Source of the DNA: a virus
DNA length: 33,199 bases
Virus record (IMG/VR): IMGVR_UViG_3300030104_002338
Span: 1 to 33,199 of that record
Reading direction: 5' to 3' (one strand)
Shown here piece by piece: positions 7,147 through 30,663 of this stretch. Below the pieces are notes generated by a model. That model saw only the letters and a program-made list of their open reading frames with translations. It searched no databases and was not told where the DNA came from. A program made the position numbers and the translations under genes. Every line of letters begins with the position of its first letter. Position 1 is the stretch's first letter.

Positions 7147-7519
7147 ATGTGTTCGGAAAGATGGCGGTCAATATACATTCGAATGGCTCTGTACCCAGGA
7201 AGGTGTGATATATTTAGCACAGTCAGAAAATATAAAGCAATGTTTTACTTGTTTCTTGAAGAAATTCAGCGATTGGACATGGGAACAAGAAATAAGAAAA
7301 GGGATTAGAGAAGACCCTAAATACATAACGTGTCGTAGATATAAGAGGGTTCAAGCAAAGAATGGTCAACAAGTTTGTTTGTACAAAGGAGCAAATAACA
7401 CATATACTTTAGTTGTAGAAGGACAGTGCCCCGTAGAGTATAGATGTAAGTATGATCCGAATGGACAAGAACCAAACATAAACAGTGTAGTTGACTCTTT
7501 AAACGATAAATTCAAATGA
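7016..7519 (+). CDS. Secreted or membrane-anchored Cys-rich protein
   Basis: From the ATG at 7016 this encodes 167 residues. A short basic N-terminus (YYRRK) precedes a hydrophobic stretch at about 15-35, ending WAS, which looks like a signal peptide or anchor. The remaining 130 residues contain eight cysteines (45, 59, 76, 79, 106, 121, 138, 144), suggesting four disulfides in an exported domain. The frame is open further upstream to 6944, but that would bury it deeper in the previous gene; TTG codons inside the hydrophobic run are other possible starts. It overlaps the next gene by ATGA. It might be a virion-independent secreted effector, a superinfection factor or a spanin-like partner; none is proven. 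Confidence 0.65.
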   Translation: MIGNYYRRKLLGISYLQWFLLLVLVFWVVLYTHLWASTEDGGSKCVRKDGGQYTFEWLCTQEGVIYLAQSENIKQCFTCFLKKFSDWTWEQEIRKGIREDPKYITCRRYKRVQAKNGQQVCLYKGANNTYTLVVEGQCPVEYRCKYDPNGQEPNINSVVDSLNDKFK

Positions 7520-7701
7520 AAACACTAGCATTTATATTAGTAATAATGAATAATACGACCATCGAGGGAGAGATTATGTTCCCTAGCTTTCAGAAATGTT
7601 CGTGGTATCAAGCCATGATTGACAATTCAAAAGCGGGAAAAGTTCATAACTACTCAGCCTACTGTAAGCCAGTTGTTATAACGAAGAGAGAAGACATATA
7701 A
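7516..7701 (+). CDS. Small secreted-type protein with two cysteines
   Basis: A 61-residue protein with a short hydrophobic N-terminus (LAFILVIM) and two cysteines, in QKCSWYQAMI and SAYCKPV. The pattern of a short leader, an EGE-x-F turn, one Cys in an aromatic helix and a C-terminal AYCKPV is one I associate with small conserved proteins in marine phages, recalled from memory rather than searched. It is coupled to both neighbours by overlap. A periplasmic location is plausible; function unknown. Confidence 0.65.
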   Translation: MKTLAFILVIMNNTTIEGEIMFPSFQKCSWYQAMIDNSKAGKVHNYSAYCKPVVITKREDI

Positions 7702-8045
7702 TGCAAAAGAAGTTACAGAAAGGGTCTATTTTAGCAGAGGAGCTAGATACTAATGGCGATGGAGTGGTAACAGATCAAGAGCTTATGCTCAAAGAACGAA
7801 TGATGCGTCTAGAGAATCAAGACAAAAAAGAAGATCAACAAAGATATATGGTGTGGTTTTCTGCTATTTCTGTTACACTGTTTATCGTCGTACTGATGCT
7901 ACCCGTAGTTCCATTGGATAGAGTAGATCATTTGTCCTCTATAGCCTCAACTTGGGTGATAAGTAATATGGGAATAATCGGTGCGTTCATTGCAGGTAAC
8001 GCTTTTAGTAGAAAAAGTGGAGGTGGAAAAAATGAGCCTATTTGA
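7701..8045 (+). CDS. EF-hand, two-TM membrane protein (holin-like candidate)
   Basis: A 114-residue protein with a canonical 12-residue EF-hand loop at 16-27: D16, N18, D20, G21, V23, T24 and E27 all sit at expected calcium-loop positions. A charged linker follows, then two transmembrane segments at about 50-71 and 80-101, and a basic Gly-rich tail. One loop rather than a pair is unusual for a classical EF-hand domain. With two TM segments, small size and a location 170 bases before a holin and 700 before the endolysin, a lysis or holin/antiholin role is the best guess. The calcium link is inferred from the loop alone. Confidence 0.75.
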   Translation: MQKKLQKGSILAEELDTNGDGVVTDQELMLKERMMRLENQDKKEDQQRYMVWFSAISVTLFIVVLMLPVVPLDRVDHLSSIASTWVISNMGIIGAFIAGNAFSRKSGGGKNEPI

Positions 8046-8139
8046 TTTACCATTATGGAAAATGCCTAAAAAAATATTAATTTATGTTAAAAATAAAATT
8101 GTGTCGTTCTTTACAAAAACGGAGAAAGAAGATGTATAA
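8032..8139 (+). CDS. Micro-ORF, 35-residue amphipathic basic peptide
   Basis: This short ORF begins at an ATG with a strong GGAGG Shine-Dalgarno (8019-8023) lying in the end of the EF-hand gene. The peptide is a probable amphipathic basic helix (PKKILIYVKNKIVSFF) with an acidic end. The start overlaps the upstream stop by 14 bases and the end overlaps the next micro-ORF by 8. The good ribosome-binding site and the tiling of this gap by coupled ORFs argue that it is expressed. A peripheral membrane or lysis-modulating peptide is a guess from context. Confidence 0.55.
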   Translation: MSLFDLPLWKMPKKILIYVKNKIVSFFTKTEKEDV

Positions 8140-8209
8140 ATACTTAAAAAGAATTTGGTGTGCCTTACTAAATAAAAAATGTGACGTTTGTATGTGTAGT
8201 GAGGCATAA
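8132..8209 (+). CDS. Micro-ORF, 25-residue Cys-rich peptide
   Basis: This 25-residue ORF is preceded by GGAGAAAGAAG and starts inside the end of the previous micro-ORF; it stops two bases before the holin ATG. It has a basic aromatic N-terminus (YKYLKRIW) and four cysteines (10, 17, 20, 22), three of them spaced CxxCxC near the C-terminus. That could bind a metal or form disulfides. I know no family for it. The support is the ribosome-binding site and the exact fit between its neighbours. Confidence 0.45.
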   Translation: MYKYLKRIWCALLNKKCDVCMCSEA

Positions 8210-8211
8210 AA

Positions 8212-8574
8212 ATGCTGTCTACAATACTAAGTTCTATGGGTAGTCTTGCTAGTTCCTATATAGAAGGCAAGACTGCTATTCAAAAAGCTGAAGCCACTAT
8301 TAGGATGAAAGAAGCCACTGGCGAGATAGATTGGGACTTAGCTGCGATGAGAGCCTCACAGTCGTCTTGGAAAGACGAATGGCTTACTTTACTTTTCAGT
8401 ATACCACTGATTTTAAGCTTCTGCGGCTCGTGGGGCAGAGAAATAGTAGCAGACGGATTTACAGCATTGGCGGGTATGCCTCAGTGGTATCAAATCGCAT
8501 TAGGGGCTATCGTAAGTGCGAGCTTTGCAACGAGAGCATCAGCTAAGTTTTTCGGAACAAGGAAAAAGAAATAA
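8212..8574 (+). CDS. Holin, GTA/3-TM type
   Basis: A 120-residue membrane protein. Residues 1-22 are an amphipathic or hydrophobic helix, a charged middle (KAEATIRMKEATGE) follows, then a conserved SSWKDEWLTLLFSIPLIL segment (51-68) and a C-terminal hydrophobic run at about 92-110, ending in TRKKK. The WKDE-x-L-T entry into the membrane helix and the overall plan match the three-TM holin family first described for gene-transfer-agent release. Holins form holes in the inner membrane at a set time so the endolysin can reach the wall. The endolysin lies just downstream, with one small ORF between. Confidence 0.8.
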   Translation: MLSTILSSMGSLASSYIEGKTAIQKAEATIRMKEATGEIDWDLAAMRASQSSWKDEWLTLLFSIPLILSFCGSWGREIVADGFTALAGMPQWYQIALGAIVSASFATRASAKFFGTRKKK

Positions 8575-9832: not shown

Positions 9833-10738
9833 ATGGAACAGGAACAAAAAGTAGAAGAAGCAGAAACCGTTGAGGTAGAAGTTGCAGATCCTTCCATTAA
9901 GGAACAGAAGGATAAAGAAGTTGAAGTAGTTCAAGAAGTTGAGATTGAAGCGAAACAAACCGAGAATAAAGAAGAGCCAAAAGAAGACGAGCTTGAGAAT
10001 TACAGCAAGAACGTACAGACTCGAATAAAGAAACTTACAGAAAAATATCGAAAAGAAGAAAGAGATAGAGAAGAAGCTGTAAGGCTGTCCCAACATCTTT
10101 TACAGGAAAACAAGAAGCTCAAACAGACAGTAGGAAACCTTGATAAAGGATATCTTTCTGAATATGGCACTAGATTGGAGTCACAAGAAGACCAGGCAAA
10201 GAGGGCTTATTCCGAAGCGCATCAAGCCGGAGACTCCGAGAAAATGTTTGAAGCTCAGAAAGCTTTGTCAAAAATAGCCATAGAGCAAGAACGGTATAGA
10301 TTAGCTAAAAACCAATCGGATACAGCAGAACAACAAGCTGAAGCTGAACCAACTACACCGCCTCAACAGCAACAACCAAAGGCTGAAGTGTCTCCAAAAG
10401 CTAAAACTTGGGCTGAAAAGAACGAATGGTTTGGGGATAATGAGATCATGACTCAAGCAGCTTTTGTTCTACATAATAAATTAATACAAGAAGAAGGGTT
10501 TGACCCGGAGAGCGATGAGTATTATAGTGAGATTGATAGACGTATGAGAACAGAGTTCCCTCATAAGTTTGAGAAACAGAAAACGAGTAACGGAGTTCAG
10601 GTCGCTTCTGCGAATTCCACAGCATCTCGTAGTACGCAACAGAAGCGAAGATCGGTAAAACTATCGCCTTCTCAAATAGCGATAGCTAAAAAATTAGGTG
10701 TACCTCTTGAAGAGTACGCAAAATATGTGAAGGACTAA
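9833..10738 (+). CDS. Scaffolding-type head assembly protein
   Basis: A 301-residue, highly charged and largely helical protein. Residues 1-60 are Glu/Lys/Val-rich and acidic, 62-105 and 130-165 are coiled-coil-like, 168-190 are Gln/Pro-rich, and a more folded part (AEKNEWFGDN onwards) covers about 195-245. A basic C-terminus (KRRSVKLSPSQIAIAKKLGV) could dock on the inner capsid surface. This composition, just upstream of the major capsid gene, is typical of phage scaffolds, which guide procapsid assembly and then leave. No protease is recognised nearby. Starts at ATG after AGGAG. Confidence 0.8.
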   Translation: MEQEQKVEEAETVEVEVADPSIKEQKDKEVEVVQEVEIEAKQTENKEEPKEDELENYSKNVQTRIKKLTEKYRKEERDREEAVRLSQHLLQENKKLKQTVGNLDKGYLSEYGTRLESQEDQAKRAYSEAHQAGDSEKMFEAQKALSKIAIEQERYRLAKNQSDTAEQQAEAEPTTPPQQQQPKAEVSPKAKTWAEKNEWFGDNEIMTQAAFVLHNKLIQEEGFDPESDEYYSEIDRRMRTEFPHKFEKQKTSNGVQVASANSTASRSTQQKRRSVKLSPSQIAIAKKLGVPLEEYAKYVKD

Positions 10739-10741
10739 GAT

Positions 10742-11203
10742 ATGACAGATAGAACACCGAGAAAAGAAACGACCCGTGAAGCAACTTCACGCAGAAAGCC
10801 TTGGACACCACCCAACAGGTTGAATGCACCTGAACCCCCAGAGGGATACAAGCACAGATGGATTCGTATCTCCACTCGTGGAGAGGACGATAAAGTCAAC
10901 GTCCATACCAAAATGGATGAGGGATGGGAGCCAGTAAGGGCAGACGAATACCCCAACAGGGACTTACCAACCATAGAAGATGGAAAGTATGCAGGAGTTA
11001 TAGGTACAGGTGGATTAATGCTTGCCAGAATGCCTCTCGAAACAGTCAAAGAGAGAAATGAATTTTATCGAGGTAGAACTCGTGAACAAATGACTGCCGT
11101 TGACAGTGATCTAATGCGTGAACAGCATCCTTCGATGCCAATCACAAATGATCGTCAAACTAGAGTTTCATTCGGGGGTCGAGGTGATTCCCCTAAAAAT
11201 TAA
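10742..11203 (+). CDS. Conserved head-module protein, unknown function
   Basis: A 153-residue protein between scaffold and capsid genes. The N-terminus is basic and Pro-rich (TPRKETTREATSRRKPWTPPNR). The centre has GYKHRWIRI and a Gly-rich turn, and the C-terminal half contains an ordered, probably conserved run (MPLETVKERNEFYRGRT, then QMTAVDSDLMREQHPSMPI). I recall this latter pattern from marine phage head clusters, without an assigned function. Gene position suggests an accessory scaffold or capsid-associated protein. Confidence 0.75.
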   Translation: MTDRTPRKETTREATSRRKPWTPPNRLNAPEPPEGYKHRWIRISTRGEDDKVNVHTKMDEGWEPVRADEYPNRDLPTIEDGKYAGVIGTGGLMLARMPLETVKERNEFYRGRTREQMTAVDSDLMREQHPSMPITNDRQTRVSFGGRGDSPKN

Positions 11204-15453: not shown

Positions 15454-16134
15454 ATGCCATACTTACAAAGTAACATCCCACACTTTAAGTGTTGGGTGCG
15501 GAAAGAATATACGCATAATCACGAGAAATATCATGGAGAGTTTCTACACGCTATGGCGATTGCAGTTACTACCATGCCGAATAGGTGCCTAAGTTTCCAG
15601 TTAATCTTCACAGGTTGTGAAGCAGAGGACGAAGAGAATGTACATGGAGGTGCAATGTGGGCTAGGATGCCGATTACAGCGTTGGTCGGTGACTTCGATT
15701 TTGAGGGATGGCCCGACCCTATGGCGACGTATCTAGCACAACCTTGGGATTGTGCGTCACATCATCATTCTGTATATGTCCTAGACAGAGCAACACCATG
15801 TCCCTGGTTAGCGAAGATAGGATCTAAGTTTTATCCTGCAAAATACTTGTTTACCGTGGACTACACAGAGAGTGAGATCGCTGATGACCCGGCACAACAT
15901 AAACAGAGCCATGTGATGCAACTACTAGAAGCAGACAACTATACAGGAAATATTGTTGCCTTGCCGAACAATCGTGTGAGAGTAACGCATCCCGCTTGGT
16001 TTGAAACTGGAGAAGGTCCTCCAGACTTTAAGCCGTCTCAGCATATTCACTACTCGAAGTCAGACTTGGATTATGTATTGGACGTAAACCAAATATTTGA
16101 TAATATGTACGCAAATGATGAAGAGGACGAATAA
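15454..16134 (+). CDS. Conserved-looking protein, unknown, in connector region
   Basis: A 226-residue protein that I do not recognise. It is rich in His, Trp, Tyr and Cys (HFKCWVRKEYTHN, GEFLHAMAIAVTTMPN, CASHHHSVYVLD, PCPWLAKIG), with an acidic C-terminus. There is no signal peptide or membrane segment. The well-spread aromatic and His residues suggest a compact folded domain and possibly metal binding. It sits between the small basic proteins and the adaptor genes, so a minor virion protein is plausible. The start lies three bases after the preceding stop, without a clear Shine-Dalgarno of its own. Confidence 0.75.
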   Translation: MPYLQSNIPHFKCWVRKEYTHNHEKYHGEFLHAMAIAVTTMPNRCLSFQLIFTGCEAEDEENVHGGAMWARMPITALVGDFDFEGWPDPMATYLAQPWDCASHHHSVYVLDRATPCPWLAKIGSKFYPAKYLFTVDYTESEIADDPAQHKQSHVMQLLEADNYTGNIVALPNNRVRVTHPAWFETGEGPPDFKPSQHIHYSKSDLDYVLDVNQIFDNMYANDEEDE

Positions 16135-20454: not shown

Positions 20455-20784
20455 ATGGCTAATACCTTTAAAAACAAAGTATACAGTGGAGCAAATACCT
20501 CTGCTGATGCCCTAGTAAGTGTCTACACCACACCTGCAAGCACGACTACAGTTGTCATAGGGCTGACGTTAGCCAATACAACAACAAGTCAAATAACTGC
20601 TGACATAAAGTTAAACGCAGGACAAACGGTGTTTTTAGCCAAGAATATACCCATACCTGCGAGTTCATCATTTGAGTATATGGCAGGAAATAAAATTATT
20701 ATGGAGACAGGAAACACGTTGCAAGTGTCGTCTAATACGGCTGACAGTTTAGATACAGTAGCAAGTATAATGGAGATAACATAA
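20455..20784 (+). CDS. Small beta-sandwich fibre-region protein
   Basis: A 109-residue protein preceded by AAGGAG. It reads as a compact beta-sandwich: NTFKNKVYSGA, TVVIGLTLANTT, QITADIKLNAGQTVFLAKNIPIPASSS, then NTADSLDTVASIMEIT. I recall similar short phage proteins beside fibres, sometimes annotated only as hypothetical. It overlaps the next start by one base. Likely a fibre-associated or capsid-decorating part. Confidence 0.7.
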   Translation: MANTFKNKVYSGANTSADALVSVYTTPASTTTVVIGLTLANTTTSQITADIKLNAGQTVFLAKNIPIPASSSFEYMAGNKIIMETGNTLQVSSNTADSLDTVASIMEIT

Positions 20785-21233
20785 TGGCGTATATAGGAAA
20801 CCAAGTTCAGGCAAACTTCCACGATATACCCTCTGTACAGCGTTTTAATGGCGATGGGAGTGCTACAGCATTTACTTTGAACCAGAATGTATCAAACGTG
20901 CAGGGTGTCCTTATATCCGTAGATGGGGTTGTTCAAGACTCTAGTGCCTACTCTTTAACTGGGGGTACAAACCTCGTATTCTCAGAAGCTCCTTCATCTG
21001 GTACAGGCAATATCTTTGTAAACTATCTTGCGTTAACTGATGCCAGTGTCGTGCCACCAGAAGCCAACAAGGGTAATTTTAAGAATGGTGGTATGTTTAG
21101 AGTTAACTCACAGACTGTAGATGTTAGCACAACAATAGAAGCTACAGAAAATGCCACAGCCACAGGACCTTTAACAGTATCTTCAGGCATAACGCTGACA
21201 GTAAACTCAGGGGGCAATCTAGCAATCATATGA
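20784..21233 (+). CDS. T7 gp17 N-terminal-like fibre fragment, copy 1
   Basis: A 149-residue protein opening MAYIGNQVQANF, with FNGDGSATAFTLNQNV, LISVDGVVQDSSAYSLTGG and NIFVNYLALT, which resembles the short fibre N-terminal domains that attach T7-type tail fibres. The C-terminal part ends TGPLTVSSGITLTVNSGG. The second protein of this plan is at 23824-24285: it also opens with a YIG turn, carries an NGV-type strand and ends with a PLTL/TITVNG-type strand. I infer that both are short adaptor-like fibre parts. Confidence 0.75.
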   Translation: MAYIGNQVQANFHDIPSVQRFNGDGSATAFTLNQNVSNVQGVLISVDGVVQDSSAYSLTGGTNLVFSEAPSSGTGNIFVNYLALTDASVVPPEANKGNFKNGGMFRVNSQTVDVSTTIEATENATATGPLTVSSGITLTVNSGGNLAII

Positions 21234-21781
21234 GCAATCTTCTAGTACAGAATATAAAGCATACGAATGCTACGACAGCTATGACTGTGGATAGTAGTGG
21301 GCGAGTATTACATTCTGTTAAGCCATCATTTATGGCAATAGGGTATCAGAGTGAAACTTCAGATTTTACAACTGGCTCAGAAAGTGCGACTGTCAATGGT
21401 ATAACTCCATCTGGAAATAATCTTATATACAATTATAGGACAATAGTACAGAATACTGGAAGCCATTTTTCTAATAGTAGTGGTAGATTTACTTGTCCAG
21501 TAGCAGGACTGTATCTAGTAACTGCTCATATGGGATATAAAGATGGAACTAATTATACTGGATTAGGTATGTATGCAACTTCAAGTGATTCTACTACATT
21601 AGGTCATGTATTTGCTTGGTCACAAAATAGTCCTAATCACGATTGTTTAACTTTAACGGCTCATGTAGTTGCGAGTGTTGGTCAACAATTTTTGTTGGTT
21701 CTTAGAGGAGATTATTCACACCCCTCTTCTTCTGCGGCAGATCAACATTACTTTCATTTTGGAGCTTCATTTTTAGGATAA
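21230..21781 (+). CDS. Array fibre ORF, C1q-like type (1)
   Basis: A 183-residue protein with two parts. The N-terminal tag (MSNLLVQNIKHTNATTAMTVDSS, about 1-23, split here only by length) and linker are shared in pattern with other ORFs of the array. The C-terminal half (82-183) looks C1q/TNF-like: GRFTCPVAGLYLVTAHMGY is the usual strand pair and the end, HFGASFLG, is the typical closing strand. C1q-type trimers bind ligands on surfaces. The gene overlaps its upstream neighbour by four bases and starts a run of similar-sized ORFs. Confidence 0.72.
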   Translation: MSNLLVQNIKHTNATTAMTVDSSGRVLHSVKPSFMAIGYQSETSDFTTGSESATVNGITPSGNNLIYNYRTIVQNTGSHFSNSSGRFTCPVAGLYLVTAHMGYKDGTNYTGLGMYATSSDSTTLGHVFAWSQNSPNHDCLTLTAHVVASVGQQFLLVLRGDYSHPSSSAADQHYFHFGASFLG

Positions 21782-21784
21782 ACA

Positions 21785-22324
21785 ATGAGTACATTAAGAG
21801 TAAATAGCATAGGTAGTCAGGAAAAACCCACATCTTCATCTATTTATAGATTTCAAACACAGTTTATTATTAATAATGATAATGTTGGTGGAAAAACTTT
21901 AAATACTACATCTTTTGAAGAGGTTGCTTCTGATATGAGAATCTCTATTACACCCTCTTACATAGATTCACTTATCTTGATTAAGTATCATTTTTTATTT
22001 GGAGGGGGTAACTCTACTTTAGTTAGACATTTTAAAATACGAAATGTGACAACTAGCACTGACGTAGATTTAGGTCACTCAGCACAAGGCAATAGAACAA
22101 ATATGCACGGTAGTCATAGAAATCAAGATGCTGATGACAATGACGTAGATATGCTTACTGTTGAAGCATCTGAAATCTCTGGGTCTACAACAGAAAGAAC
22201 TTATGGTTTATTTTTTAAACTTGAGAGTGGTTCTGATGATTCATACTTTAACCACACCACCACAGACACAGCATCTATAGGCTATGTGAAGCCAATGATT
22301 ACAATACAGGAAATGTCTAAATGA
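21785..22324 (+). CDS. Array fibre ORF, ITP-strand type (1)
   Basis: A 179-residue protein with the tag MSTLRVNSIGSQ, then RFQTQFIINND, a beta core that contains RISITPSYIDSLILIKY (the ITP-strand of this family) and a C-terminus closing PMITIQEMSK, comparable with the SIILMEI and WISVEEI closings of other array members. The His-rich loop (GSHRNQDADDNDVDM) may be a ligand or metal surface. Likely trimeric and tail-associated. The start lies three bases after the previous stop. Confidence 0.7.
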   Translation: MSTLRVNSIGSQEKPTSSSIYRFQTQFIINNDNVGGKTLNTTSFEEVASDMRISITPSYIDSLILIKYHFLFGGGNSTLVRHFKIRNVTTSTDVDLGHSAQGNRTNMHGSHRNQDADDNDVDMLTVEASEISGSTTERTYGLFFKLESGSDDSYFNHTTTDTASIGYVKPMITIQEMSK

Positions 22325-22845
22325 GTACACTATCAGTAGACACAATTCAGGGTAAGACCACAGCATCTAAGGTAGATATAGGTGGTCATGTTGTACAAGT
22401 TATATATGCTGAAACAGATACAAGGCAAACTCTTACTTCAACATCTTATGTTGACCTTACTGGAATGACTGCAACCATTACACCTTTTAGCTCAAGCAAT
22501 AAAATATTAGTACAGGTATGTCTTAATATAGGTCATGCCGAAGTAGGCATGAACATTGGATGTAAATTACTTAGAGGTTCAACGAATATATTTGCAGGGA
22601 CAGATACGAGCATGAAACAAGGATTTGTTCAAACTGAGTGTGGCATTACTGGGTATCAGTACGAAATTAAAAATTTTACAGCAACCACACTTGATGCCCC
22701 TGCAACTGCTTCAGCAGTTACATATAAAGTACAAGGTACAATTAATACAGCGGCAGGAAGTTGGTATATGAATAGAAACCATAGCAACACCTCAGTTCAA
22801 GGAAACACGAAATCATCTATAACATTATTGGAGATAGGGCAATGA
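22321..22845 (+). CDS. Array fibre ORF, ITP-strand type (2)
   Basis: A 174-residue protein. The tag is MSTLSVDTIQGKTTAS, close to the SRLLVDKIEGKTTAS of the ORF at 24282. The core has HVVQVIYAETD, TATITPFSSSNKILVQV and a closing SSITLLEIGQ. It carries two or three cysteines (IGCKLL, TECGITG). Overlaps neighbours by four bases at each end. Same family as its neighbours, with a diverged middle that probably forms the variable ligand face. Confidence 0.72.
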   Translation: MSTLSVDTIQGKTTASKVDIGGHVVQVIYAETDTRQTLTSTSYVDLTGMTATITPFSSSNKILVQVCLNIGHAEVGMNIGCKLLRGSTNIFAGTDTSMKQGFVQTECGITGYQYEIKNFTATTLDAPATASAVTYKVQGTINTAAGSWYMNRNHSNTSVQGNTKSSITLLEIGQ

Positions 22846-23252
22846 CTGACATAGCAAAAGCGTTACAAAGTTTAGGAGTAACAGAATGGGTTCTCAGAGG
22901 AGAGCCTACAAATGAAGATGAGTTTAACTCAATGTTTCGCAAAGTAACAGGAGCAGATAGCAGTGGTTCGGCTATAGAAAGTGCAGACCCAAAGGACTGG
23001 GGTGTAAATTATGCACAGGTAGCAGGTGAAAAGACACTACTGCAAAGCCGTGAGCCAATGCGATTGCTCCGTGAAGAACGAGATAGATTACTGGCAGAAA
23101 CAGATTGGACTGCGTTAGGTGATGTAACTATGTCGAGTAACATGAAAACCTATAGACAAGCCTTGAGAGATTTACCTGCTAGTTCTGACCCAAAGCTAGA
23201 TAGTGATGGTGGATTAGACATGAGTAGTGTAACATTCCCAACTAAACCATAG
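22842..23252 (+). CDS. Phage tail assembly chaperone-like protein (copy 1)
   Basis: A 136-residue protein whose central helix, REERDRLLAETDWTALGDV, and following TYRQALRDLPA match the small tail-assembly-chaperone-like family (Phage_tail_APC type). In that family the R-x2-LL-x2-TDW and YRQALRDL signatures are diagnostic. N-terminal half: TDIAKALQSLGVTEWVLRG. The family is usually found next to fibre genes; its exact partner is unclear. A shorter copy is at 25820. Overlaps the preceding ORF by four bases. Confidence 0.78.
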   Translation: MTDIAKALQSLGVTEWVLRGEPTNEDEFNSMFRKVTGADSSGSAIESADPKDWGVNYAQVAGEKTLLQSREPMRLLREERDRLLAETDWTALGDVTMSSNMKTYRQALRDLPASSDPKLDSDGGLDMSSVTFPTKP

Positions 23253-23261
23253 GAGTAAGAA

Positions 23262-23819
23262 GTGGCTTTAACCAGAATAAGAGGAGATGCAGTACAGCAC
23301 TCAGCGATGCCAACTGGTGCTGTTTTGCAAATTCAACAAGCCTCTTATACAACAAGAGGAGACATCAACTCTACTGGTGATACTGTTATTTTTGGGGTAT
23401 CAATTACACCTAAATTTTCTACTAGCAAAGTTTTAGTTAGAATGAATTTAGATGTTACGCATCATAATTACTATAGTGGATTAATTCGTTGTCAAAGAGT
23501 TATAAGTGGTGGAGCTACAACTTTGATTGGGGGTGGTGTAGCCTTTGGAAGTAATGCTATTGCTAATGTTTGGATGAATGTAAGAAAAGCTCATAGAGAT
23601 GGTGAGACAGATGATACTCTTGATATTTATTCGTATCATTCTTATTCGCATGAACACTTAGATTCTCCATCAACAACTTCGGCAATAACGTATAACGCAC
23701 TTGGTCGTTCTGTAGCAGGAGGAGCAAATTTACATTTAAATAGAACAAGTCAAAATAGTGACCAAGAGTTTAATAGTGCAGGGTTTTGTACTATGACAGC
23801 AACGGAAGTAGCAGGATAA
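23262..23819 (+). CDS. Array fibre ORF, ITP-strand type (3)
   Basis: A 185-residue protein with a GTG start and AGGAG upstream. It lacks the tag of its neighbours and instead opens TRIRGDAVQHSAMPTGAVLQI. It has SITPKFSTSKVLVRM, a signature almost identical to that in the ORFs at 24282 and 24785, and a closing CTMTATEVAG. A His-rich loop (YHSYSHEHLDSP) precedes LDSPSTTSAITYN, which is mirrored by LDSPSTTTSTNYK at 24785. This shows that the two C-terminal domains share an ancestor. Confidence 0.72.
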   Translation: MALTRIRGDAVQHSAMPTGAVLQIQQASYTTRGDINSTGDTVIFGVSITPKFSTSKVLVRMNLDVTHHNYYSGLIRCQRVISGGATTLIGGGVAFGSNAIANVWMNVRKAHRDGETDDTLDIYSYHSYSHEHLDSPSTTSAITYNALGRSVAGGANLHLNRTSQNSDQEFNSAGFCTMTATEVAG

Positions 23820-23823
23820 CAAT

Positions 23824-24285
23824 ATGCCATATATCGGAAAAGCACCAAATCAAGGAGTAAGGACTAGGTTTATCTACCAAGCCACAGCAAGTCAAACTTC
23901 GTTTAGTGGGTCAGATGCTAATGCAAATTCTTTGAGCTACAGCGATGGTGAGTATGTGGATGTCTATCAAAATGGTGTTCTACTAAAACCTGCAACAGAT
24001 TACACAGCTACATCTGGTACAACAATGGTATTGGTTACAGGAGCTTCCCTTAATGATGTAGTTGAGATAATTGTTTATGATGCTTTCACAATAGCTAATA
24101 GTTATTCCAAAGCAGAATCAGATACACGCTACCCTTTTCTTGGAAATGATAGCATTATACGAACAAATGGAAATAGTATCACAGCAGATATAACAATACC
24201 AAGTGGTACAAACGGATTGTCAGCAGGACCTATAACATTGACGAATGCTACAATCACAGTTAACGGAGTATATACAATAGTATGA
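23824..24285 (+). CDS. T7 gp17 N-terminal-like fibre fragment, copy 2
   Basis: A 153-residue protein, PYIGKAPNQGVRTRFIYQAT, then a DANANSLSYSDGEYVDVYQNGVLL turn (given in parts: SYSDGEYVDVYQNG), DYTATSGTTMVLV, and VVEIIVYDAFTIAN. This is a well-known fibre docking domain in short-tailed phages. It ends with GPITLTNATITVNGVYTIV. It has the same plan as the protein at 20784-21233, though sequence identity is low. It sits inside the small-ORF array between two ITP-strand members, which suggests it was inserted or duplicated with a block. Confidence 0.78.
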   Translation: MPYIGKAPNQGVRTRFIYQATASQTSFSGSDANANSLSYSDGEYVDVYQNGVLLKPATDYTATSGTTMVLVTGASLNDVVEIIVYDAFTIANSYSKAESDTRYPFLGNDSIIRTNGNSITADITIPSGTNGLSAGPITLTNATITVNGVYTIV

Positions 24286-24785
24286 CCAGTAGATTATTAG
24301 TAGATAAGATTGAGGGGAAAACAACAGCTAGTGCTGTGCAGATGCCATCAGGTGTTCCAATACAATATAAAAGAGAAAGCACTCAAGCTAACTTAGGAAC
24401 AATAACAAGCACCAGTTATGTAAAGTTAGGAGGGGGAGCATTAGATTTAACCATAACTCCTAAGTTTTCAACAAGTAAATTGGTACTTCATGGAGCTTTT
24501 CCTGTATATGTAAATACTAACGCTTATCCATCTACTATTTTTGCTTTTTATAGAGATGGCACAATAATTGACCAACATAATGTTACTTATGGAGCAGGGT
24601 ATGTTCAAATAAATACTAGTCAATTAGCAGGATTTCATACTTATGTAAGTGCAGAAGTAGATGCAAATAATACTAATAGCACAACATTTACTATATATGT
24701 AAAATCAAACACAAGTTCTGGAAATAACTCAGTATTTACAGATTTAGCTAATAGATGGATTTCAGTTGAGGAGATAGCACAGTAA
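24282..24785 (+). CDS. Array fibre ORF, ITP-strand type (4)
   Basis: A 167-residue protein, overlapping both neighbours. Tag: SRLLVDKIEGKTTASAVQM. Core: SYVKLGGGALDLTITPKFS then TSKLVLHGAF, with an ending WISVEEIAQ. Middle residues (FYRDGTIIDQHNVTYGAGY) differ from its siblings. The tag matches the one at 22321 over a dozen residues while the core matches those at 23262 and 24785, a sign of recombination among members. Confidence 0.72.
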   Translation: MTSRLLVDKIEGKTTASAVQMPSGVPIQYKRESTQANLGTITSTSYVKLGGGALDLTITPKFSTSKLVLHGAFPVYVNTNAYPSTIFAFYRDGTIIDQHNVTYGAGYVQINTSQLAGFHTYVSAEVDANNTNSTTFTIYVKSNTSSGNNSVFTDLANRWISVEEIAQ

Positions 24786-25300
24786 TGGCAAGTGAACTTC
24801 ATGTAGATTCAATAAAACATTCTGGTGGTACAAGTGCCATAACGATAGATAGTAGTGGTGTGGTACATATGGCAGGTCATGTAATACAAGTGGTTTCAGC
24901 AACATCCACAACAAGAGCAGCAATTACGTCAAGTTCTTTTACAGCCTTTGATTTAAACTGTGATATTACACCCAAATTTAGCACTAGCAAGATACTGATT
25001 CATTTACATAGTGGGTTTAATTCTGAAGCCGCAGATAGAAGAATTGATGCTACCGTTTACAGAACAATTAGTGGAGGAAGTGCTACGGAATTATCTGGTC
25101 AAACTAATGGGTTTCAGACACTTGACCATTCTGGCAATAGAAATGAAGGAGCATTTTCAATTCACTATTTAGACAGCCCATCAACCACCACAAGCACAAA
25201 CTATAAGCTATATTGTCGTAGTGTTGATAGTGCTACTATAGAAATACCCTCGTCTAACACGCAAATGCAAAGCATAATTTTGATGGAGATAGCAGTATAA
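24785..25300 (+). CDS. Array fibre ORF, ITP-strand type (5)
   Basis: A 171-residue protein. Tag: ASELHVDSIKHSGGTSAIT then DSSGVV, which matches the tag of the C1q-type ORF at 21230 (QNIKHTNATTAMTVDSSG), although the C-terminal domain here is the ITP-strand type: DITPKFSTSKILIHL, LDSPSTTTSTNYKLY, closing IILMEIAV. This is the clearest example of one tag joined to a different C-terminal domain. Its MAGHVIQVV resembles GGHVVQVI at 22321. One-base overlaps at both ends. Confidence 0.74.
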   Translation: MASELHVDSIKHSGGTSAITIDSSGVVHMAGHVIQVVSATSTTRAAITSSSFTAFDLNCDITPKFSTSKILIHLHSGFNSEAADRRIDATVYRTISGGSATELSGQTNGFQTLDHSGNRNEGAFSIHYLDSPSTTTSTNYKLYCRSVDSATIEIPSSNTQMQSIILMEIAV

Positions 25301-25815
25301 TGGCATCAATACTTAAAGTAAATACCATACAAGATGCAACGAACTCTAATACGGCTTTGTCTATTGATACAGCAGGGCGTGTGACTGAACCCAATAGACC
25401 TGCGTTTCTTGCAACCTATTCTAATAATGCTTGGAGTACAGTAACTAATAATGATGTTGTGGCATTTAATGATGTGTCATCTGGTGATTGTTTTGACAAT
25501 GGTAGTAACTTTGTAACAGGAACAAACAGATTTGTAGCTCCAGTTGCAGGTACTTATTATTTTGCTTACAGCATATACACGCACAATAGTGACACAACAT
25601 CAGCATTTAAGTTTAGAAAAAATGGTTCTGACTTGGTAATGGCAGGAAGCACAGCACAATTTACACAAGCGTCTGAAGATGCCGCAATAGATAATACGGC
25701 AACAGGTATAACAGTTACAAGTCTTGCAGTAAGTGATTATATACAGGTTTTTGGAGCAGGAAGTGCAGATGTATATGGTTATTATTCCAGTTTTTGTGGG
25801 CATTTAGTAGGGTAA
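25300..25815 (+). CDS. Array fibre ORF, C1q-like type (2)
   Basis: A 171-residue protein. Tag: ASILKVNTIQDATNSNTALS then DTAGRV, the same plan as at 21230 and 24785. The C-terminal domain has NRFVAPVAGTYYFAYSIY, KFRKNGSDLV and an ending FCGHLVG, a C1q-like arrangement. A Cys pair (GDCFDNG and the late FCGH) may form a disulfide. Overlaps upstream by one base and lies four bases before the next gene. Confidence 0.74.
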   Translation: MASILKVNTIQDATNSNTALSIDTAGRVTEPNRPAFLATYSNNAWSTVTNNDVVAFNDVSSGDCFDNGSNFVTGTNRFVAPVAGTYYFAYSIYTHNSDTTSAFKFRKNGSDLVMAGSTAQFTQASEDAAIDNTATGITVTSLAVSDYIQVFGAGSADVYGYYSSFCGHLVG

Positions 25816-25819
25816 TGAT

Positions 25820-26038
25820 ATGTCAATAGAATTAAGACACTTTAGAATATTAAGAAACAGAAAGTTAAAAAATAGCGATTGGACACAGGCTAACGATAGT
25901 CCATTGTCAGACACAAAGAAAGCAGAGTGGGCTACCTATCGACAGACACTTAGAGATTTAACAAAGACAGTAACACCTAAATTTGTAGAAAATAGTCCAA
26001 AGATAGATGAATCTGATTTCCCAGAGGAACCAAAATGA
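25820..26038 (+). CDS. Phage tail assembly chaperone-like protein (copy 2)
   Basis: A 72-residue protein with LRHFRILRNRKLKNSDWTQ, then AEWATYRQTLRDLTKTV and an acidic end. It keeps the core signature (R-x-RKLKNSDW and YRQTLRDL) of the larger copy at 22842 but lacks that copy's N-terminal half. It may be a minimal family member, since forms about this short exist as I recall. Sits between the two C1q-type ORFs and overlaps the next gene by four bases. Confidence 0.75.
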   Translation: MSIELRHFRILRNRKLKNSDWTQANDSPLSDTKKAEWATYRQTLRDLTKTVTPKFVENSPKIDESDFPEEPK

Positions 26039-26544
26039 GCAAAGCAGCAGAATTAGCAAAATTTATAGGTGATGGGACTTTAGGAACAACTCAGACAAAT
26101 AGAGTTGTGTTTGAAGCACATTATAGTGGAGCTAATTTAACATTTAATACTGGAAGCAATGCAGCTTTAACTTACAACAATGTTGTCCAACAAGGTGGCA
26201 CAAACTATTCTACGTCCACAGGAAAGTTTACAGTACCCATAACTGGATTTTATTCTTTTGCGATTAAAAACAATTTTTACAACATTGCTGATGGGAATAT
26301 AATGTATCATGGCTTACTTCAAAATGGTTCAGATTTCAGCACTGACGAAGCGACTTATGGGGAGTACACGACAAGTTCCCATAGCACTCTCGATTTTACC
26401 CTTTCGTCTACTATTATGAGAAAATACACAGAAGGAGATACACTTCAGCCATTTGTAAGAGTTGGTGATGCAGGTAATGGAACAGGGCAGACAGGCAATA
26501 GCGCATTGAATTACCACACTTTTGCAGGGGTTTTAATAGGATAA
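26035..26544 (+). CDS. Array fibre ORF, C1q-like type (3)
   Basis: A 169-residue protein. A different, shorter N-terminus (SKAAELAKFIGDGTLG) joins a C1q-like domain: GKFTVPITGFYSFAIKNN, LLQNGSDFS, MRKYTEGDTLQPFVRV, ending FAGVLIG. The strand pair and final F-x-G-x-L-x-G parallel the ORFs at 21230 and 25300. The N-terminal AAELAKFIGDGT resembles tail-fibre entry segments. It is the last of the eleven small ORFs. Confidence 0.74.
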   Translation: MSKAAELAKFIGDGTLGTTQTNRVVFEAHYSGANLTFNTGSNAALTYNNVVQQGGTNYSTSTGKFTVPITGFYSFAIKNNFYNIADGNIMYHGLLQNGSDFSTDEATYGEYTTSSHSTLDFTLSSTIMRKYTEGDTLQPFVRVGDAGNGTGQTGNSALNYHTFAGVLIG

Positions 26545-26547
26545 ATT

Positions 26548-26904
26548 ATGCTTGGCTTTAGCTCCATATCAGAAGTAGCGTTTGCACAGCTTCCTGGGGT
26601 TTTTGTACCATTAACAGGTCAAGCAGCAACCTCGGCTGTTGGAGCAGCGGGGGTTCAGGCAACAGGCGCAGCAAATGTAACTACAGTAGTAGGAACCACG
26701 GCTCTTGGATCAATAAGCGTTACTGGAACAGCCAGTATTTCAATAACTGGACTTTCTGCTACACTTTCTCAAGGAAGTGTTATAGTATGGGGCATGGTTA
26801 TACCAGGCGTTACTACAACGTACTCAAATGTAAATACGTCGAACAGCCCAACGTGGTCTACAGTATCTACTGGAGCCTCGCAGATATGGACAGAAGTAGC
26901 ATAG
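26548..26904 (+). CDS. Small tail protein with beta repeats
   Basis: A 118-residue protein. The opening, LGFSSISEVAFAQLP, is one I associate with a common family in marine phage tail regions. The rest is a repetitive beta series: AVGAAGVQATGAANVTTVVG, then ALGSISVTGTASISITGLSA and a Trp-containing end (SPTWSTVSTGASQIWTEVA). The repeat unit, about 11 residues of Gly-x-Ser/Val-x-Val-x-Gly, suggests a stalk. Function unknown beyond virion location. Confidence 0.72.
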   Translation: MLGFSSISEVAFAQLPGVFVPLTGQAATSAVGAAGVQATGAANVTTVVGTTALGSISVTGTASISITGLSATLSQGSVIVWGMVIPGVTTTYSNVNTSNSPTWSTVSTGASQIWTEVA

Positions 26905-28311: not shown

Positions 28312-30663
28312 ATGCCCTTAACGGCACTTAAATTTAAACCAGGGATGAATAGAGAATCCACGTCCTATTCTAATGAAGGTGGTTGGTTTACGGGAGATAA
28401 AGTGCGTTTTAGATTCGGTGCTCCCGAAAAGATAGGTGGTTGGTCGAGTTACAGCGACAATACGTTTTTAGGGACTTGCAGAGCCTTGTTTAGTTGGGTA
28501 GCGTTAGATGGTACTAAATACTTGGGCCTTGGTACAAATCTTAAATACTACATAGCTGATGGTGGTGCCTACAATGACATTACGCCAATTAGAAGAACTT
28601 CTGGAACATTAAGTAATATTTTTGGTGTGACGGACGGTAGTAAGGTAGTAACCGTGACGGACGCGGGGCATGGAGCCGTGCTGAATGACTATGTTACTTT
28701 TTCTGGAGCCACGGGTTTGGGAGGCGAGGTAACAGCAACAATTCTTAATGCAGAACACAAGATAACAAGAGTTGTAAATAACAATGTATATGAAATAACT
28801 CTTTCGGGAAACGCAGCAAATAGTACAGATGCAGCAGATAGCAGTCCTGGTGGAACTTCAATCGTGGCTAAATATCAAGTAAACACGGGTCTTGATACGA
28901 ACTTCTTTGGCACGGGGTTTGGAGCGGGTTTATGGAACGGTATAAACACAAATGAAGTTACAACAACACTAAACGAAGAGCTTGATGCGTCTGAAACAGA
29001 GGTAACCGTCACAAGTGCAACAGGTATATCTACCTCCGATGTGATAGACGTTGCGGGTGAACTCATGTCAGTTAGTGGTATTTCTAGCAATGATTTGACT
29101 GTGACCCGTGGACACGCGGGCACCACAGCCGTTGTGCATTCTAACGGAGAGTTAGTACGATTAGTAGTGGGTAATGCTGTTGCTGCTGACGACACGGTAA
29201 ATCAAGTTAATGGCAGTGGACTAGCGTCTGACGCAACAGTAACCACGGCAACAGTTGATTCCGCTGCAGCGTTTCCTACTTCTGGCTACATTAAAATTGA
29301 AGATGAGATAATAGAATACACGGGCACAACCTCTACAACATTTACTGGTTTGGTACGAGGTTCTTTTAATACCACAGCAGCTACTCATGCAGACAATGAA
29401 GCTGTAATCGAAGCAAGTTTTGGTTGGGGTATGCCGGCAGAGAGCACAGTTTCTGGTGCAAACTTAACAAATTGGACTCACGACAACTTTGGTGAGGATA
29501 TCTTAATAAACATAAAGAATGGTGGTATTTATTATTGGGACAGAACGTCGGGCACCTCTTCAAGAGCCGTACAACTATCTGATTTATCTGGTTCTACGCT
29601 CGCTCCTACGATAGCTAAACAGATTATGGTGTCCGACCAGGATAGACACGTTATTGCTTTTGGGTGCGATGGCGAGTCGTCTATTGGTACGCAAGATCCT
29701 TTGCTTATACGTTTTGGATCACAAGAAAGTCTAACATCTTGGCAAACACTTGCTACGAACACGGCAGGTGAGTTACGCATATCTACTGGATCAGAGATAG
29801 TTGTGGCTATTCAGACCAAACAACAGATATTGGTGTTTACGGATGTATCGCTACATGGAATGCAGTTCCTAGGCCCACCATTCACTTTTGGTTTAAACGA
29901 AATATCAAGAAATATTACGGTTGCAAGTGCTAACGCAGCTATTGCGGTCAACGACTTTGTTTTCTGGATGGGATCAAAAGAGTTCTATGTATACGGTGGT
30001 ACGGTGCAGAGACTACCATGCACGGTTCTTGATTATGTGTTCTCTGACTTTAACAGAGATCAAATAGGTAAGGTAACAGCAGGACATAATTCTTCTTATG
30101 GTGAAGTATGGTGGTTTTATCCGTCCAAAAGTAGCTCTACAAATGACCGTTATGTAATTTATAATTATCAAGAAAAAGTGTGGTATTTTGGCAACCTTAC
30201 ACGAACAGCGTGGGTAGATAGAGGTATAAATCAGTACCCAATAGCTGCTCATACTGACAATAAGCTGTATTACCATGAATTTGGTCAAGATGATGGTAGT
30301 ACAAACCCACCTTCAGCTATATCCGCGAACATTGAATCAAGTCAGATAGATATAGGTGACGGAGAAAAGTTTGCTCTTATACGAAAAGTGATTCCAGACG
30401 TTACATTTAGAGACAGTACAAACGGGACACCACGAGTAAATATGGTGGTAAAAACCAGAAACTTCCCTGGTGTAACCTTTAACGAAACGAGCAGTAATGC
30501 TGTATCGCAGTCGGTTTCCACCCCCGTAGAGCTATTTACAGAACAACTTCATGTTCGAGCACGAGGGCGATCCTTTGCTTTTCGCATAGAAAGTGACGTA
30601 ACTGGCGTTATGTGGAGATTGGGGACACCAAGACTTGATGTAAGACCCGACGGGAGAAGATAA
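28312..30663 (+). CDS. Tail nozzle / P22 gp10-like DNA-stabilisation protein
   Basis: A 783-residue protein. The opening (LTALKFKPGMNRESTSYSN, GGWFTGDKVRFRFGAPEKIGGW) and the propeller-like repeats of Gly/Trp/Tyr blades match the P22 gp10-type stabilisation/nozzle proteins that plug the portal and adaptor end. The later part, FVFWMGSKEFYVYGG then GEVWWFYPSKSSS and YNYQEKVWYFGN, gives blade-like strands. A central section (about 218-368) contains two tandem copies of a beta module. The gene is preceded by AGAG and ends in a one-base overlap. This strongly supports a podovirus. Confidence 0.8.
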   Translation: MPLTALKFKPGMNRESTSYSNEGGWFTGDKVRFRFGAPEKIGGWSSYSDNTFLGTCRALFSWVALDGTKYLGLGTNLKYYIADGGAYNDITPIRRTSGTLSNIFGVTDGSKVVTVTDAGHGAVLNDYVTFSGATGLGGEVTATILNAEHKITRVVNNNVYEITLSGNAANSTDAADSSPGGTSIVAKYQVNTGLDTNFFGTGFGAGLWNGINTNEVTTTLNEELDASETEVTVTSATGISTSDVIDVAGELMSVSGISSNDLTVTRGHAGTTAVVHSNGELVRLVVGNAVAADDTVNQVNGSGLASDATVTTATVDSAAAFPTSGYIKIEDEIIEYTGTTSTTFTGLVRGSFNTTAATHADNEAVIEASFGWGMPAESTVSGANLTNWTHDNFGEDILINIKNGGIYYWDRTSGTSSRAVQLSDLSGSTLAPTIAKQIMVSDQDRHVIAFGCDGESSIGTQDPLLIRFGSQESLTSWQTLATNTAGELRISTGSEIVVAIQTKQQILVFTDVSLHGMQFLGPPFTFGLNEISRNITVASANAAIAVNDFVFWMGSKEFYVYGGTVQRLPCTVLDYVFSDFNRDQIGKVTAGHNSSYGEVWWFYPSKSSSTNDRYVIYNYQEKVWYFGNLTRTAWVDRGINQYPIAAHTDNKLYYHEFGQDDGSTNPPSAISANIESSQIDIGDGEKFALIRKVIPDVTFRDSTNGTPRVNMVVKTRNFPGVTFNETSSNAVSQSVSTPVELFTEQLHVRARGRSFAFRIESDVTGVMWRLGTPRLDVRPDGRR

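Follow-up and report, generated by a model that had tools for sequence, protein, structure and literature searches.

Does a run of short fibre-type genes furnish one virion with a panel of adhesins, or does it hold a store of tips for exchange, and how did it arise? This question is raised by a locus in the window, the whole analysed stretch of 33,199 nt (positions 1–33,199 of IMG/VR record IMGVR_UViG_3300030104_002338). Eleven plus-strand ORFs follow in succession at 21230–26544, neighbours mostly overlapping (−4/−1) or separated by gaps of 3–9 nt (Table 1; genes are cited by start position or slot letter). The number and coordinates of these ORFs agree with the original prediction, which took all 11 as fibre ORFs; only eight are adhesin-type proteins composed of a tag and a head, whereas 22842 and 25820 are chaperones and 23824 is a fibre N-terminal-type protein. 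The match of 22842 to PF16778 (Phage_tail_APC) scored 47.5 bits (cut-off 26.6), and 25820 was akin to 22842 (blastp 1e-8). The 20784 product is a weak paralogue of 23824 (E 0.011); 20784 leads the first half and is a probable partner of slots A–C, and 23824 (slot F) leads the second half as probable docking partner of slots G–I. The locus is probably the tail-fibre region of a short-tailed, HMO-2011-like marine phage.

Table 1. Genes of the tail-fibre locus, with positions in the window
Feature	Position	Strand	Evidence
Fibre N-terminal-type protein (MPYIG/MAYIG type)	20784..21233	+	phrog_18673 tail fibre protein 1.5e-26
Slot A: tag MSNLLVQNIKHTN + C1q head	21230..21781	+	PF00386 2.8e-07
Slot B: tag MSTLRVN(D)SI + ITP-type (TNF-lectin-like) head	21785..22324	+	phrog_6942 9e-06
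Slot C: tag MSTLSVDTIQGKTTA + ITP head	22321..22845	+	phrog_6942 3.3e-13
Slot D: tail-fibre assembly chaperone	22842..23252	+	PF16778 1.7e-12
Slot E: tag MALTRIRG, GTG start, ITP head	23262..23819	+	blastp to 24785 2e-9
Slot F: fibre N-terminal-type protein, conserved	23824..24285	+	phrog_18345 1.1e-06
Slot G: tag MTSRLLVDKIEGKTTA + ITP head	24282..24785	+	slot G heads ITP in 54/54
Slot H: tag MASELHVDSIKHSGGTSA + ITP head	24785..25300	+	TNF-like lectin fold in model
Slot I: tag MASILKVNTIQDATNSNTA + C1q head	25300..25815	+	PF00386 8.9e-09
J: second, short tail-fibre assembly chaperone	25820..26038	+	phrog_4912 4.8e-13
Slot K: tag MSKAAELAKFIGDG + C1q head	26035..26544	+	PF00386 5.7e-08

The array was found in about 100 IMG/VR contigs, and the comparison set consists almost entirely of metagenome contigs. 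Comparison of gene number and order among relatives, as the original prediction had proposed, showed that the slots keep the order A-B-C-D-E-F-G-H-I-(J)-K and that, of the 16 complete arrays (two fibre-only loci left out), 15 have exactly eight head slots. The position of the 20784-type gene was unchanged. Slot D was conserved over its full length, with 78–97 % identity in most array-bearing relatives, and slot F was 75–100 % identical across the 80 kept loci and 70 % identical to its counterpart in HMO-2011; J was optional and was seen in 13 loci. Slot-specific tags in fixed order, largely fold-specific slots and exchange edges at the tag/head border are features that one window could not reveal.

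Each slot possesses its own near-invariant tag, and the heads reach background identity by about residue 35–40. In slots A, C, G, H and I, pairwise identity averaged 0.92–0.99 over residues 1–10 and 0.83–0.99 over residues 11–15, falling to 0.09–0.29 by residues 31–35; for slot A it was 0.97–0.99 over residues 1–10 (62 loci). The primed and unprimed tag sets did not mix in any of 97 loci. The N-terminal tag common to the array that had been proposed therefore does not form a single family: slots A, B, C and G, H, I are two LxVxxI-tagged triads, each behind a fibre N-terminal protein, the TA-x-x-x-D-S-x-G extension is confined to 21230, 24785 and 25300, and other tags are of different types (MALTRI.. 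in 23262, MSKAAELA.. in 26035). The claim that one tag type carries different heads held, the tags of 21230 and 24785 being 56 % identical over 25 aa (E 2.7e-4). In monomer models the tags were of low confidence (pLDDT 56–62). Synonymous identity over tag codons 2–16 was 0.86–0.91 in slots B, H, I and K, and 0.70–0.77 in A, C and G compared with 0.76 and 0.77 at the gene starts of D and 20784; conservation of tag DNA beyond the needs of the protein is thus only suggestive, A, C and G not lying clearly above other gene starts.

The heads belong largely to two folds. The C1q domains predicted in slots A, I and K were confirmed, PF00386 scoring 31.2, 36.1 and 33.5 bits, respectively (gathering cut-off 23.7), and the model of slot I (pLDDT 87.1) had a C1q/C1QL fold of the gC1q/TNF jelly-roll type, with C1QL2 matched by Foldseek at 6.6e-09 (TMt up to 0.87). 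An ITP-type domain was common to 22321, 23262, 24282 and 24785 (blastp E down to 2e-9), as predicted, and the ITPKFSTSK motif is exact in the last three; 21785, placed with them by the original prediction, joins this group only weakly (blastp E 0.07–0.12, besides its PHROG match). The slot H model (pLDDT 84.6) showed a TNF-like lectin jelly-roll fold, matched in VIA to 9ib7 at Z 15.1 (rmsd 1.9 over 125 residues). The ITP fold was likened to the lectins PLTL and BC2L-C (Z 14–15), and its matches also include ExsF and BclA of the Bacillus exosporium. By sequence, the slot H head type matched the C-terminus of orf22 in PDB 9efk, present in 18 chains (E 9e-21). A match of 24282 to the second domain of Mtd (E 0.012) was under the cut-off and was not counted as evidence. 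The heads are probably trimeric, and it is their fold and position that suggest binding to receptors or glycans.

A single fold is favoured in each slot apart from H, where both occur. Slot B heads were of ITP type in 47 of 50 loci, slot H carried 28 C1q and 24 ITP heads among relatives, and slot K held 43 proteins of INGAM type (~350 aa) and 10 with C1q heads. Slot E was the most variable, with C1q, ITP or other heads; its ‘other’ count contains some 28312 homologues and was left out of the argument. The fold-matched slot classes are C1q (A, H, I and K) and ITP (B, C, G and H), with E mixed.

Similar heads were found on different tags. Fifty-nine pairs of heads, in 22 clusters, were at least 80 % identical despite differing tags (maximum 99 %), which strongly supports the proposed duplication and recombination; the slot C head of the window (22321), for example, was 93 % identical to the slot A head of another locus (L197). 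DNA identity in the 22 bridging clusters starts at the tag/head border (median nt 82), and in 20 of them it ends within 13 nt of the stop codon. Where the F genes of two loci were 95–99.5 % identical in DNA, the tags were 96 % identical, yet the heads differed (<40 % identity) in 92 % of slot comparisons. The 415 heads formed 278 clusters at 70 % identity (Chao1 ~670). None of 741 cross-slot pairs within a phage was ≥70 % identical, but only 0.8 such pairs were expected, so avoidance of duplicate heads is unsupported.

Full agreement of tag and domain trees, named at the outset as an outcome that would speak against exchange, was not seen. On the C1q head tree, slot labels were as scattered as shuffled labels (41 changes versus 43.9 ± 2.7); the ITP head tree showed 62 changes versus 77.8 ± 3.3, below the shuffled value, and some slot memory therefore persists. 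Both trees were reconstructed with FastTree from highly divergent sequences. Ancient tandem duplication and divergence without exchange, to which the resemblance of A, B, C and G, H, I to two copies of a triad behind weakly paralogous 20784 and 23824 might point, is scarcely credible in the face of the C1q label pattern and of tags that differ yet carry heads with as much as 99 % identity when the F gene itself is only 80–94 % identical. It is also highly improbable that the head combinations are false ones, created when short-read assemblers fused strains at shared tag DNA. The tags, alike between strains at the synonymous level, are where such joins would form, all comparison sequences except HMO-2011 are metagenome contigs, and one locus (L116, where F occurs twice and the C position bears a G tag) could be a chimera; however, the isolate HMO-2011 carries the same slot array, the DNA shared at cross-slot joins is just ~20–25 nt and the edge pattern is repeated in 22 clusters. 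In addition, a separate IMG/VR contig (L081), with a different A head, matches the window at 99.5 % over 4352 nt, from the end of slot A through J.

A near-DNA search of isolate phages gave no match, and no annealing recombinase was recognized among the scanned replication-region proteins of one long relative. A diversity-generating retroelement was rejected, since a search for reverse transcriptase (PF00078) in HMO-2011, in four long relatives and in the record of the window, virus records which may be fragments, found none. A shufflon or other invertible fibre system is likewise unlikely: inverted repeats were weak and imperfect only (best 20–22 nt at 77–85 %), and a scan for tyrosine integrases found one in just two of six records.

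The head genes are intact and translationally coupled, most neighbours overlap by −4/−1, and promoter-like sites occur in chance number (30 versus 32.0 expected). Head dN/dS was ~0.25, indicating purifying selection (0.24 for the same slot, 0.26 for different slots), and no positive selection was seen. Intact, coupled heads under purifying selection argue against a silent store; together with the eight slots in 15 of 16 arrays, they make the first of the two uses originally proposed, a panel of short adhesins, fit better than the second, an exchange store. That the locus is an archive, using one or a few of its fibre tips and keeping the other alternatives for exchange or inversion, is accordingly very unlikely; many similar heads do adjoin and heads do move between slots, but against it stand the fixed gene number, the slot-specific tags, the selection on same-slot and cross-slot pairs alike and the weakness of the inverted repeats. 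Quite unlikely, too, is the idea that these are decorations of tail or capsid, or assembly parts, whose variety is unrelated to host recognition. C1q/TNF folds are known in structural proteins, as the exosporium matches illustrate, but long fibre proteins occupy this locus in some relatives (L013, L020 and L012, S74-containing in the latter two), adjacent genes encode chaperones of fibre assembly and fibre N-terminal proteins, the ITP head forms the C-terminus of the 18-chain 9efk protein, and glycan-binding lectins are among the best fold matches. Two mixed fibres of three chains each, A+B+C behind 20784 and G+H+I behind 23824, plus E and K, would be in keeping with a layout in which three LxVxxI-tagged genes come after the fibre N-terminal protein of each half, with the three ITP-headed genes and following chaperone-like gene of phage Lederberg, and with tag sets that are unmixed throughout. 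One triad nevertheless holds different folds (C1q in A, ITP in B and C), which makes mixed trimers of one fold impossible, and this arrangement is regarded as unlikely.

The closest isolate is the SAR116 phage HMO-2011 (Puniceispirillum phage, GU557055). Its locus has the gene order of the window, with counterparts of 20455, 20784, F and K, two genes resembling APC and short heads that carry tags, but most of its heads are of NLQQ type and extra genes lie between D and F. The annotation treats these genes simply as individual putative tail fibres; the literature examined yielded no account of slots or of exchange. The clustered genes with conserved N-termini and variable C-termini follow the sequence pattern of the branched receptor-binding systems of CBA120 and Klebsiella RaK2/phiK64-1, which place several receptor-binding proteins on a virion, with conserved docking N-termini, exchanged C-termini and gene clustering (PMC10253068); receptor binding by the array is putative. 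Docking in those phages relies on folded domains like those of T4 gp10, and their heads are large and mostly enzymatic, in contrast to the 25–30 aa tags, small heads, eight slots and cross-slot movement seen here. No T4 gp10-like XD/D1-D2 domain was matched in Pfam/PHROG sequence scans of the eight proteins, and no enzyme domain was recognized in the small heads.

In pelagiphage metaviromic islands, C1q proteins lie close to the tail fibre; their N-terminus recruits reads well and their C1q domain is hypervariable. The islands also contain ‘putative carbohydrate binding domain’ genes (Mizuno 2014, PMC3909814), and a fosmid gene so named resembles the ITP-type tip of 9efk. What was inferred there from read recruitment were single genes; slot tags, arrays, head movement across slots and its edges do not feature. 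Short tagged genes with ITP heads, and behind them a gene for a chaperone or a chaperone-like protein, also occur in Pelagibacter phage Lederberg and in Methylophilales phage Melnitz, a myophage (PMC9004378), but in sets of three to four and in phages that are otherwise different. The array is thus a variant of a known arrangement of anchor and exchanged head; this variant appears to be new, no tagged slot array with head exchange being described in the open-access literature found.

Eight short adhesins with slot tags and exchangeable heads therefore probably replace one long fibre in this HMO-2011-like locus. Each consists of a slot-specific N-terminal tag of 25–30 aa and one small head (C1q or TNF-lectin-like), accompanied by the two fibre N-terminal proteins and two assembly chaperones. 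The tags may act as plugs that dock every adhesin at its own site on the fibre or tail, which would explain why tag, order and number are conserved. The heads are interchangeable cassettes, exchanged, presumably by a recombination enzyme, at the tag/head border and at the head's stop/ribosome site, so that whole heads pass between phages and between slots, mostly among fold-matched classes. If one translationally coupled message yields all eight adhesins, a virion carrying a panel of binding heads would follow. That a single virion shows eight adhesins in private sockets, into which an open pool of heads plugs by recombination at the plug border wherever the fold is compatible, is a tentative reading with slightly less than an even chance of being right.

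Fixed sockets with free head exchange would explain the hypervariable appearance of these regions in viromes, and would offer a concrete, testable route by which host specificity is changed or combined with the backbone unchanged. Whether a tag of 25–30 aa is enough to dock, whether heads cooperate and whether the slot determines a head's capabilities become testable questions. HMO-2011-type phages are described as dominant and widely distributed in the ocean (PMC9038755), and the array, if this reading is true, would give abundant marine phages a combinatorial board for host recognition.

The window encodes a terminase large subunit, a portal, a major head protein, a phrog_3287 virion structural protein and a DNA-ejection-type gene, and therefore represents a structural region. 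The 11 predicted ORFs at 21230–26544 were found on the + strand, but only eight of these supposed small fibre genes, three with a C1q domain and five with an ITP-type (TNF-lectin-like) domain as originally assigned, encode proteins with a slot-specific N-terminal tag of 25–30 aa followed by a C-terminal head. The other three encode two chaperones and a fibre N-terminal protein.

Features of the array and neighbouring genes (array slots A–K in brackets after gene starts)
Feature	Position	Strand	Evidence
C1q proteins	21230 (A), 25300 (I), 26035 (K)	+	Domain match
ITP-type domain proteins	21785 (B), 22321 (C), 23262 (E), 24282 (G), 24785 (H)	+	
Tail-fibre assembly chaperones	22842 (D), 25820 (J)	+	
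Fibre N-terminal protein	23824 (F)	+	
Small conserved ORF (MLGFSSISEVAFAQLPG...)	26548–26904		No PHROG match
Virion structural (stabilisation-type) protein	28312–30663		phrog_3287
Protein listed as ferredoxin / auxiliary metabolic gene	15454–16134		phrog_3704 (7e-28)

The phrog_3287 protein has 783 aa against a profile of 524 positions, and its residues ~209–369 match stretches of the baseplate/fibre families phrog_2885, phrog_11439 and phrog_7578; homologues in many relatives are shorter (641–700 aa), and those in isolates are annotated in part as ‘stabilization protein’. In most relatives, with or without the array, the collar-type gene is directly preceded by a homologue of the small conserved ORF. 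The phrog_3704 match falls within the structural region.

Searches with the phrog_3287 gene, the fibre N-terminal gene (F) and chaperone gene D yielded 173 non-redundant sequences, including the window, nearly all of them metagenome contigs; slots and heads were labelled using our own tag patterns and iterated profiles. Where the array recurred, the slot order A to K was kept, with J optional and variable in position, and exactly eight head slots were present in 15 of 16 complete arrays (excluding L012 and L014, which have almost no slots). The layout was also matched by HMO-2011, a SAR116 phage isolate. In another group of loci the same positions carried a second tag set (B', C', G', H' and I'), and the two sets were never mixed in 97 loci, although F identity differed only moderately (83.5 % between groups, 89–91 % within). 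Interaction among the tags of a set might explain this separation, as might lineage structure alone. In L011, L024, L134 and HMO-2011 the slots of this second set held heads of another family, TTTNLQQG... (76 members). In L013, L020 and L012 longer proteins (up to 1356 aa) replaced the array, those of L020 and L012 possessing the S74 chaperone-of-endosialidase domain, which is known from tail spikes and fibres that form trimers. One protein of ~1200–1490 aa, beginning with an 18527-type or 26914-type N-terminus, occupied the tail-fibre locus in L013 (3569–7639), L020 (3531–7127) and L035 (5152–8823), so that array and single long fibre alternate there. In L218, a long relative, 7362–8336 and 10178–11080 code for a homologue of thymidylate synthase and a protein with a 5-hmdU DNA kinase domain (PF18723, 1.1e-51), which suggests hypermodified thymidine in the DNA of that phage.

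Slots differed strongly in the fold of their heads. C1q heads predominated in slots A (52/62) and I (43/49) and ITP heads in B (47/50), C (55/56) and G (54/54), whilst H held 28 C1q and 24 ITP heads and K held 43 of the INGAM type (proteins of ~350 aa) and 10 C1q (C1q/ITP by slot, chi-square 242; none of 2000 permutations as high). This preference may be a docking rule or a consequence of shared left homology, TIDSSG being common to C1q slots and GKTTA..MPSG to ITP slots.

Mean within-slot identity (A, C, G, H and I) was 0.92–0.99 at residues 1–10 and 0.83–0.99 at residues 11–15, falling to 0.09–0.29 at residues 31–35 and about 0.07–0.09 beyond. In slot A only about 70 % of codons were identical at conserved tag residues, which indicates selection on the tag protein itself. 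When phages with 95–99.5 % identical F DNA were compared slot by slot, 92 % of the comparisons showed different heads (<40 % identity); heads mostly agreed (89 %) only at ≥99.5 %.

The suggested recombination was strongly supported, as 22 head clusters bridged tag types and slot labels of C1q heads were scattered as by chance (slots A, H and I; 41 slot changes on the tree, against 43.9 ± 2.7 for shuffled labels). ITP heads showed 62 changes, fewer than with shuffled labels (77.8 ± 3.3) though far in excess of the three needed at minimum. Heads are thus exchanged frequently, but those of the ITP type retain some memory of slot. Of the head pairs with ≥80 % identity, 165 lay in the same slot, 59 in different slots of different loci and none within one locus. 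The slot A head of L197, for example, was 93 % identical to the C head of the window. In DNA alignments, identity of cross-tag heads started at a median of 82 nt past the start codon, about the tag end, and ended ≤13 nt from the stop in 20 of 22. At the left border the C1q slots have a GACTATTGATAGTAGTGG-like string (TIDSSG) in common, and head ends share AATAGGATAA or GAGATAGCACAATAG-like strings that double as stop and, probably, ribosome site. L081 matched the window at 99.5 % over 21774–26125 and, on the upstream side, at 86 % across tag A as far as 21331; head A was largely unmatched, implying at least one crossover at the slot A cassette border. Some same-slot tag–head combinations could be assembly chimeras, given the preponderance of metagenome contigs, but cross-slot combinations are harder to account for in this way. 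One bridging cluster joins L116 and L117, identical in genomic position with different tags; L116 carries at 210–1185, where A-B-C is expected, an extra F copy and then a G-tagged gene with the head of slot C in its sister L117, the product either of ectopic recombination between C and G or of chimeric assembly.

The array had also been proposed as a store for exchange. A silent store of heads is unlikely, because gene number is fixed, the genes are intact, dN/dS is about 0.25 for head pairs whether or not they share a slot, and the inverted repeats found are only weak. A retroelement-driven system was rejected, no reverse transcriptase being found as far as the virus records reach.

In structure models, the head of 25300 (C1q) resembles gC1q domains (TMt up to 0.87; pLDDT 87) and that of 24785 (ITP) resembles PLTL and BC2L-C, two TNF-like lectins (Z 14–15; pLDDT 85); the ITP profile also matches the C-terminal 160 residues of orf22 (E 9e-21), present as 18 chains in PDB 9efk. 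Position, chaperones and folds point to the heads as putative receptor-binding tips. Mosaic tail fibres are known (PMC10684548), a contrast in recruitment between N-terminus and C1q was noted in pelagiphages in 2014 (PMC3909814), and the receptor-binding proteins of CBA120 and RaK2 likewise combine an anchor with an exchanged head (PMC10253068). Relative to such systems, short tags particular to each slot, fixed sockets, matching of slots to folds and head traffic between slots with these edges appear new, no account of them having been found in the open-access papers covered.

Many array junctions are −4 or −1 overlaps and the rest short gaps. In other systems phage annealing proteins are known to carry out recombination at short homologies; no such protein was recognised among those scanned from one 63-kb relative, which include polymerase A, primase and helicase. 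We propose that one translationally coupled message would yield eight putative adhesins, each docked by its own tag, and that new heads would enter by recombination at the tag border, presumably in co-infection.
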